Shown: positions 16,998 through 19,006 of the stretch, piece after piece
Numbering within the stretch: position 1 is the stretch's first letter
Layout: each line of letters begins with the position of its first letter
From: Fervidobacterium nodosum Rt17-B1
Lineage (GTDB): Bacteria; Thermotogota; Thermotogae; Thermotogales; Fervidobacteriaceae
Assembly: GCF_000017545.1 (NCBI RefSeq)
Contig: NC_009718.1
Coordinates: 682,001 to 746,000 of the forward strand
Length of the DNA: 64,000 nucleotides
Direction of reading: 5' to 3'
The notes under the pieces: generated by a model
The model's database searches: none
The model's input: only the letters and a program-made list of their open reading frames with translations
Told to the model about the DNA's origin: nothing
Made by a program: the position numbers and the translations under genes

Positions 16998-17018
16998 CAT
17001 CAGCAGCAAGTAAAAAAC

Positions 17019-17044
17019 AAAAGCTGGGCCCATGCCCAGCTTTT
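17019..17044. terminator. Bidirectional terminator between convergent genes
   Basis: Eleven-bp stem AAAAGCTGGGC / GCCCAGCTTTT with loop CCAT, with A- and T-tracts on both sides, between the hydrolase gene and the DEAD-box gene. Confidence 0.9.
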
Positions 17045-17046
17045 AT

Positions 17047-18762
17047 TTAAGTTCTTGATTTTCTTTCTTTGCTTTCTCTATTTTCCCTATTTTCTCTTTT
17101 TTCCCTCGCTCTTTCAACGAGAGGTTTAGAGCGTGAATTTTTACCCCTTTTTGGATTTAATGTCTTCAATATAACTTCTGCGTCAAATTCACTTACATCT
17201 ATGAAAGAGAAATTTTCAAAGACTTTTACATTGTTGATATTAGATGGCTCAACACCCGTTCTTTCAGATATGAACTCTACAAGCTTTTTCTTATCTAGTC
17301 CTTTTGAACTGCCCATATTTACGAATAATCTTACACTTCCAGAATCAACATTTTTGTTTGAATCCCCAAAATTTTGTTCTCTTCCTTTAGAAAAGTTCTT
17401 CGGTTTTACATCACCATACCTTGATACATCTATCTTATCTTTTATCAAAGTATGGAGAAGCATTTCAACAGCTTCAGTTGGTCCCATTTCCTCGATAATT
17501 TGTTGAGCTGCTCTTTTGTAAAGTTCGTTTGAAACTTTTGGTGCATTTTTTAAAGTATCTAAAAGTTTTTCAAGTTGCCTGTTAAGTATGTCTTCAACCT
17601 GCGGGATTGAATCTTTGATTATCTTTGCCTTAGCAAATCTCTTAACTCTCGCAAAGTGGAAGTAATCATCTCTTGTGACGAATGTGATAGCAAAACCTTT
17701 TTTTCCAGCTCTTCCAGTTCTTCCAATTCTGTGTACGTAATACTCAGGATCTCTTGGAACAGAATAATTTATAACATGCGTCAGCCCATCAATATCAATA
17801 CCACGAGCTGCCACATCTGTCGTGACTAATATTCTCAATTGCTTTTTTCTAAATTTATCAAGTACTCTTTCTCTTTGGTATTGAGAGTAATCACCATGGA
17901 GACCATCTGCATTGTAACCAAGGTCCAAGAGTTTTTTGGATATTTCATCAACTTCTAATTTTGTCTGGCAAAAAACGATACCGTAAAAATCTGGATTCAT
18001 GTCGATAATTCTGCAGAGTAATGGCAATTTATCCTTTTCATCGACTTCAAAGTAAAGTTGCTCCGCATTTTCTGTCGTAAGTTCATCTTTAACCGTTGAT
18101 ACGTGTATATATTCTTTCATGAATTTTCTTGCTATATCAACTATTTCTTTTGGCATCGTCGCAGAAAAAAGAAATGTTCTCTTATTTTCGCCAGTTCTCT
18201 TAATTATTTCAAGTACATCATCTAAAAATCCCATGTCAAGCATTCTATCGGCTTCATCAAGGACAAGATATTCCACATGTGAAAGGTCAAGAGTGTCACG
18301 ATTTAGGTGGTCTATAATTCTACCCGGTGTGCCAACTACTATATCAACACCTTTTTCAAGGTCTTTGAATTGCTTTTCAAGTGATTGACCACCGTAAAGT
18401 GTTGTTATTTTAACTCGTTTGGTACCTTTCAAACTTTTCAGTTCTTCGAAGATTTGCAACGCTAATTCGCGCGTAGGTGTAACTATTATAGCCTTTACAA
18501 ATTTGTTTGCCTTGAAATCTATCCTTTCAAGCAAAGGTATTCCAAATGCTGCCGTTTTACCTGTTCCTGTTTGTGCTTGAGCTATCAAATCCTTATCAGT
18601 TGATAAAGCGTAAGGTAAAACAATTTTTTGTATTTCCGTGGGTTTTTCATAGCCTTTCTTTTGAATAGCCAAGAGAATTTCTTCACTCAAGCCAAAATCT
18701 TCAAATCTCTCGTAGTTTTTTGTTTCGTCTAATACACTTCCCGTGTTTACCATGTACTTCAC
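17047..18762 (-). CDS. DEAD-box ATP-dependent RNA helicase
   Basis: 571 residues. Helicase core in order: Q motif (FEDFGLSEEIL, PTEIQ), AQTGTGKTA (Walker A), PTRELALQI, GTPGRIIDHL, VLDEADRMLDMGF, FSATMP, later DVAARGIDIDGL and HRIGRTGRAG. Residues ~470-545 form a DbpA-like RNA-binding domain (VRLFVNMGSSKGLDKKKLVEFI), followed by a basic, Arg/Glu-rich tail. This is the CsdA/DeaD layout, acting in cold adaptation, ribosome assembly and mRNA turnover. GTG 18762 is placed seven bases after AAGGAG; ATG 18753 is an alternative. The 5' leader has an unusual fold (separate entry). Confidence 0.94.
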   Translation of the reverse strand: MKYMVNTGSVLDETKNYERFEDFGLSEEILLAIQKKGYEKPTEIQKIVLPYALSTDKDLIAQAQTGTGKTAAFGIPLLERIDFKANKFVKAIIVTPTRELALQIFEELKSLKGTKRVKITTLYGGQSLEKQFKDLEKGVDIVVGTPGRIIDHLNRDTLDLSHVEYLVLDEADRMLDMGFLDDVLEIIKRTGENKRTFLFSATMPKEIVDIARKFMKEYIHVSTVKDELTTENAEQLYFEVDEKDKLPLLCRIIDMNPDFYGIVFCQTKLEVDEISKKLLDLGYNADGLHGDYSQYQRERVLDKFRKKQLRILVTTDVAARGIDIDGLTHVINYSVPRDPEYYVHRIGRTGRAGKKGFAITFVTRDDYFHFARVKRFAKAKIIKDSIPQVEDILNRQLEKLLDTLKNAPKVSNELYKRAAQQIIEEMGPTEAVEMLLHTLIKDKIDVSRYGDVKPKNFSKGREQNFGDSNKNVDSGSVRLFVNMGSSKGLDKKKLVEFISERTGVEPSNINNVKVFENFSFIDVSEFDAEVILKTLNPKRGKNSRSKPLVERAREKRENRENRESKERKSRT

Positions 18763-18930
18763 GTCCTTTCTCCTTGCTTACATCGTTTTTATTTTTTCGT
18801 CGGTTTAGTCCATCCCTTACCTTGCTTTTTCTTGCCCTTCAAAGGGGTAATGAACCAACCTTCAAGTTTAATTTAAACTACCAATAGGTAGCTTAAAACG
18901 GTAAAGCAAGGAGAAAGGGATTGACTAATT
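18763..18930 (-). promoter_or_regulatory. Candidate bistable 5' leader of the DEAD-box helicase mRNA
   Basis: About 168 bases of non-coding leader. Segment A at the very 5' end (18928-18903) can pair in two exclusive ways. With segment B (18828-18805) it forms about 22 bp in three runs. With segment C (18779-18765, containing the AAGGAG ribosome-binding site) it forms 15 uninterrupted bp, AAGCAAGGAGAAAGG on the C side. The first fold frees the ribosome-binding site and the second buries it. A small hairpin (CTACC/GGTAG core) lies in the A-B loop. Regulation by temperature or by the helicase itself is inference. Confidence 0.7.
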
Positions 18931-18935
18931 CATAG

Positions 18936-18964
18936 CTTATAAAGTTTAACACATATGCTGATAA
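18936..18964 (-). promoter_or_regulatory. Promoter of the DEAD-box helicase gene
   Basis: TTATCA (18964-18959), 17 bases, TATAAG (18941-18936). It sets transcription to begin near 18930, exactly at the start of leader segment A. Confidence 0.6.
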
Positions 18965-19006
18965 TTACAATTAAGATTATATTACATTTTAGATTTTGTA
19001 TGAAAT

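Follow-up and report, generated by a model that had tools for sequence, protein, structure and literature searches.

A conserved two-state leader of a DEAD-box RNA helicase gene in Fervidobacterium nodosum as a candidate strand-exchange switch

Introduction

What does the leader of a DEAD-box RNA helicase gene in Fervidobacterium nodosum Rt17-B1 do, if its 5′ segment can pair either with an internal segment or with the segment that holds the ribosome-binding site (RBS)? The question is raised by a window of 64,000 nucleotides (nt), that is, the whole stretch of DNA analysed here (assembly GCF_000017545.1, contig NC_009718.1, positions 682,001 to 746,000), to which all coordinates refer. A preliminary description had read the leader as a two-state RNA switch in which segment A pairs with segment B, opening translation, or with segment C, closing it. 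Both the two-state switch and the conservation of the leader are strongly supported, but that picture was incomplete, as a fourth segment, D, adds a third pairing, D:B. The reading that we hold to be somewhat more probable than its contrary is a co-transcriptional four-segment strand-exchange switch, in which translation would be first ON and then OFF, with the OFF step promoted by heat and probably also by the helicase.

Architecture of the leader

On the minus strand, the leader is arranged in the order A, D, B, C and start codon, with the following four segments:

18903..18927, minus strand: segment A, the anti-RBS strand, with the core CCUUUCUCCUUGC at 18918-18906
18842..18858, minus strand: segment D, partner of B in the OFF state, absent from the preliminary description
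18807..18828, minus strand: segment B, partner of A (ON) or of D (OFF)
18765..18779, minus strand: segment C, the RBS strand, with AAGGAG at 18775-18770; a perfect 15-base-pair (bp) complement of A

Segment A is complementary to both B and C, and the two pairings exclude each other, as had been proposed. The A:C helix has the 15 perfect bp ascribed to it, with AAGGAG inside C. The run pattern described for A:B is also present: the runs GCAAGG/CCUUGC and AAGGGAU/AUCCCUU lie around a UCU/U internal loop and are followed by a G.A mismatch and a short outer run, with A at 18927-18903 and B at 18828-18807. Chance pairing was rejected, given that the 191-nt leader folds with z = -6.3 (matched by 0/200 shuffles) and that the A:RBS and A:middle pairings together were equalled in strength by none of 1000 dinucleotide shuffles for each of the nine distinct leaders introduced below. 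The double complementarity of the helicase leader is thus real.

Conservation and covariation

Orthologues were gathered by a search of the order. The leader precedes the helicase gene in eight other genomes of the genus and in one genome of the sister genus, which together with F. nodosum makes ten leaders, nine of them distinct (the segments of L038 are identical to those of L037). Segments A, D, B and C are all kept in 10/10 leaders, before helicases that are 64-100% identical. The core of A varies, reading CCUUUCUCCUUGC in F. nodosum, CCUUUCAUCUUGC in L037 and CCUUUCUUUUCGC in L040, and the partner strands change accordingly.

Segments were anchored by hand, because plain MAFFT, run on all ten leaders, placed B and C wrongly in some of the rows. 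In the resulting alignment (A1), A:C has 96.6% of cells paired and three double-changed pairs; A:B is 91.4% paired, with double changes in 6 pairs and 13 cells (0/500 shuffles); and the D:B core is 96.2% paired, with 3 pairs and 8 cells double-changed (0/500 shuffles for cells). Shifting the partner by 1-3 columns cuts pairing to 26-65% for all three helices. At the level of sequence comparison, these data show three co-varying helices, two of which are mutually exclusive over the RBS. Unaided MAFFT alignment of six leaders followed by RNAalifold yields A:C + D:B, and a covariance model built from four relatives has 18927-18765 as its only match in the window, with a weak E value (E = 0.14). 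There was no Rfam match for the leader. The preliminary description had considered that homologous leaders might keep neither complementarity; the opposite was found, as A:B and A:C, and D:B in addition, are kept with compensatory change in the ten leaders.

Distribution outside the genus

Covariation had been anticipated in both Fervidobacterium and Thermosipho, of which the former bears it out but the latter does not: no such leader exists in the other genera of the family (Thermosipho-like), where an upstream open reading frame (ORF) with peptide-deformylase motifs ends in a stop that overlaps the helicase start. This overlap, seen in L041-L049 at gene-strand locus position ~1500, suggests translational coupling in place of a leader.

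Helicase upstream regions of other Thermotogota families are without double complementarity of comparable strength. The double-complementarity score is -31 to -20 in the ten leaders plus the leader of a broken gene, with -21.4 or lower in the ten that precede an intact helicase, and -18.6 or weaker in all others, the best outsider standing at -18.6. The broken gene belongs to a second sister-genus genome (G009, L061:2380-3461), in which the helicase is interrupted by a frame shift and residues 145-309 are missing; the break could be an assembly fault, and the leader before it keeps A:B and A:C complementarity. BLAST and covariance-model searches gave no convincing second copy in the searched genomes, a strictly filtered model search having also missed diverged known leaders, so that absence of the element elsewhere in these genomes is only suggested. 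A match in G018 to the promoter part lies within a coding gene and was rejected as chance. In another Thermotogota family, the helicases L071 and L072 have a short 5′ untranslated region (UTR) and share a GGCCCA-like motif ~40-60 nt before the start and some tens of bases ahead of the RBS, with a similar GGCCC in L073 and L074.

Predicted folding order, stability and kinetics

In constrained folding of the leaders other than L035, L037 and L038, A:B forms when C is barred from pairing, and A:C + D:B when C is free. Folding in order of synthesis, which includes L035 and L037, bears out over 37-75 °C, in all nine distinct leaders, the exclusive pairings that the preliminary description had proposed to fold across this range: RNA ending before C has A:B at 0.64-0.92 and D:B at 0.00-0.01, whereas full-length RNA has A:C at 0.72-1.00 and D:B at 0.65-1.00 in all but L032. 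Over the same leaders and temperatures, A:C + D:B (OFF) is the more stable complete fold, favoured in F. nodosum by ~12 kcal/mol at 37 °C and by 1.7 kcal/mol at 70 °C.

The ON-to-OFF barriers, estimated heuristically with findpath, decrease as the temperature rises, being 17-36 kcal/mol for 37 °C, 14-29 kcal/mol for 55 °C and 11-21 kcal/mol for 70 °C. If the prefactor is taken as 1e7 per second, an assumption that makes the absolute times rough and leaves the trend as what counts, the predicted half-life at 70 °C is ~1 s to 25 min in eight leaders and longer in L040, and at 55 °C it ranges from 98 s (L032) to years. ON-to-OFF refolding is thus predicted to need heat or help.

The helicase gene and its transcript

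Beyond the four segments, the locus has the following features:

17047..18762, minus strand: DEAD-box RNA helicase ORF, with DEAD, Helicase_C and a C-terminal DbpA RNA-binding domain
18751..18753, minus strand: likelier start codon, ATG, 11 nt past C, a spacing as in relatives
18762-18760, minus strand: GTG start codon of the mechanically called ORF
18943..18970, minus strand: predicted promoter, with a -35-like TTGTAA at 18970-18965 and an extended -10 TGTTAAACT at 18951-18943
18875..18894, minus strand: small hairpin AAGCUACCUAUUGGUAGUUU between A and D, from the predicted fold
17015..17048, minus strand: terminator-like hairpin where the helicase gene ends

The best NCBIfam likeness of the helicase is CshA, with a score under the curated cut-off, and the protein is 70% identical to that of its nearest named relatives, which are Fervidobacterium metagenome-assembled genomes. 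It is the sole protein with a DbpA-type domain found in the F. nodosum genome (1,948,941 bases searched, one contig). Its true start is probably ATG 18753 rather than GTG 18762, because the start codons of relatives lie 11-13 nt past C within the genus; in the sister genus this distance is 8 nt. The start of the transcript had been placed right at A. A promoter-like pair is indeed present, and is kept across the genus, with only a TAAACT hexamer in the sister genus, but the predicted start lies near 18936, ~9 nt before A and 7-34 nt past the promoter-like pair. Given the terminator-like hairpin at its end, the gene is suggested to be the only one on its transcript. The hairpin AAGCUACCUAUUGGUAGUUU is particular to F. 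nodosum and was not seen in the leaders of its relatives, and C lies over the 5′ portion of a longer, purine-rich ribosome-binding tract. Elsewhere in the window, a perfect 12/12 sigma-70 consensus promoter (TTGACA-17-TATAAT, 20120-20092, minus strand) lies upstream of an ORF (20063-19563) that resembles a small helix-turn-helix regulator.

Proposed mechanism and alternative explanations

Under co-transcriptional strand exchange, A would pair with B in the nascent RNA while D is not paired with B, and the emerging C would be free for ribosomes to start (ON). In the finished RNA, A:C + D:B would bury the RBS (OFF), and this occlusion of C would be expected to lower translation. The exchange would require A:B to open, for which heat would be slow near 70 °C and hardly effective well below the growth optimum, and the helicase would most likely accelerate this opening. 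Once active helicase is ample, it would close the mRNA that encodes it, and cold or a shortage of helicase would leave the mRNA open; cold, by trapping the ON state, would raise helicase synthesis until the helicase shuts its own mRNA, a negative feedback. Such a cold response with helicase autoregulation is plausible, because in the models OFF is always the stabler state, ON is the first to form, and the barrier between them is not crossed quickly well below 70 °C.

We infer that the helicase catalyses the exchange because the product is an RNA helicase, unaided refolding is predicted to be slow, and precedents exist. The RNA chaperone StpA accelerates the refolding of a bistable RNA (PMC8565331), and the Synechocystis DEAD-box helicase CrhR regulates its own expression (PMC3485376) and Caulobacter rhlE, which has a 186-nt 5′ UTR, is more highly expressed in an rhlE mutant, so that RhlE probably controls its own expression (PMC5472812). 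As for cold, which would induce expression of the F. nodosum helicase, a helicase of Kosmotoga (Thermotogota) is cold-induced, rising, by the apparent table columns, from 89 at 65 °C to 755 at 30 °C (PMC5674127). More tentatively, with a likelihood that we put somewhat below even, the leader may be born in a trapped ON fold in which only the encoded helicase or enough heat exchanges the strands, and may in this way gauge the RNA-unwinding capacity of the cell.

Several points weigh against the proposed switch. DbpA-type domains usually target hairpin 92 of 23S rRNA; no conserved binding site for such a domain was found in the leaders, and a mimic of hairpin 92 was rejected, as its loop, UGUUC, occurs in none of them. 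D:B is weak in L032 (0.26-0.54). Some relatives have their best Shine-Dalgarno match at the 3′ end of C or just past it, so that closure of the RBS may be partial there. Both the secondary-structure energies and the barriers from findpath are approximations, which take no account of ribosomes, RNA polymerase or pseudoknotted exchange. The alignment used for counting covariation was anchored by hand and has 9 distinct rows, of which several are closely related, and the shuffle and column-shift controls remove this relatedness only in part.

Among the alternatives, the one that survives best retains the ON-then-OFF switch but has only temperature and timing set it, with refolding that is quick at growth temperature but frozen when cold, and with the helicase uninvolved. 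It would be in keeping with the predicted half-lives, which lengthen from ~1 s-25 min at 70 °C (eight leaders) to minutes-years at 55 °C under the rough prefactor, and with the lack of a conserved helicase-type binding motif in the leader. We nevertheless consider it unlikely: without help, the leaders of F. nodosum and the sister genus are predicted to refold slowly even at 70 °C, and in the searched genomes no gene other than this helicase was found to be preceded by the element, albeit by a search insensitive to diverged copies, which speaks for a link with the product.

It is improbable that the two-state leader answers to some other factor (a ribosomal protein, another RNA-binding protein or a small molecule) stabilising A:B or A:C. 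Mutually exclusive folds over the RBS are typical of translational riboswitches, and some ribosomal-protein leaders have them too, but here the linkers between segments differ in length and sequence, no conserved unpaired aptamer-like sequence was found, and an Rfam match is wanting. Highly improbable, in our view, is an A:C duplex that serves mainly as a site of processing or decay, for instance by RNase III, or a helicase that opens the OFF state in positive feedback. In F. nodosum, A:C forms a long, near-perfect stem, and RNase III cleavage in the 5′ UTR activates the cspA mRNA of Staphylococcus aureus (PMC3386247); both versions, however, leave the compensatory conservation of B and D unexplained, and a helicase acting with the opposite sign, although conceivable, would render B and D purposeless. 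A static hairpin that keeps translation low, with A:B a by-product of the likeness between B and C, is scarcely credible, for although A:C + D:B is the ground state in nine of nine distinct leaders at 37-75 °C, A:B has compensatory changes of its own beyond the part that is common to C (alignment A1, columns 3-9) and its strength matches that of A:C within ~4.5 kcal/mol in every species. Transcription attenuation was rejected, as there is no terminator-like site from 18936 to 18762.

Comparison with known systems

Like RNA thermometers of the ROSE and fourU type, the helicase leader has a helix that buries the RBS. In contrast to them, it has two folds rather than one melting fold, and its helix is predicted to be unmelted by 75 °C, at which A:C is still 0.72-0.97 paired, unlike the RBS helix of a zipper thermometer, which melts within the growth range. 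The leader is not a melting thermometer, because the predicted folding order and OFF preference hold from 37 to 75 °C. With translational riboswitches it shares the exclusive anti-RBS and anti-anti-RBS pairings, but it differs in having no conserved aptamer-like core or ligand candidate; the linkers are variable, and none of the Rfam riboswitches matched.

CrhR of Synechocystis and RhlE of Caulobacter are similar in that there is evidence of a helicase limiting its own expression, in the latter case with a 5′ UTR of 186 nt, and a structured leader upstream of a helicase gene is found in F. nodosum as well. Within the available portions of these reports, no defined conserved two-state RNA was found described for either leader, and autoregulation is reported without a defined RNA mechanism (PMC3485376, PMC5472812); in F. 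nodosum, conversely, the RNA is defined and the feedback is a proposal. How bacteria sense that RNA-unwinding activity is sufficient is a question that a compact, conserved and thermostable leader with sharply predicted states makes testable in vitro. If the proposed mechanism is true, the leader would be a natural kinetic strand-displacement switch operating near 70 °C.

The closest comparison is with the cspA leader of Escherichia coli, a cold-shock thermosensor. Autoregulation by Csp proteins was reported by Zhang and colleagues in 2018. As in the helicase leader, an RNA-remodelling protein is encoded behind its own 5′ UTR, in which two exclusive folds set ribosome access (PMC9450479), and such folds, opening and closing the RBS, are found here by prediction and by conservation. 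The product, however, is a DEAD-box helicase without a cold-shock domain, and the leader has no sequence likeness to that of cspA and no Rfam match. The helicase leader also uses a four-strand exchange with a 5′-terminal anti-RBS strand, belongs to a thermophile, and has OFF as its predicted ground state at every temperature tested. It works like the exclusive leaders of cspA, yet stands outside that family, since gene, sequence and geometry differ.
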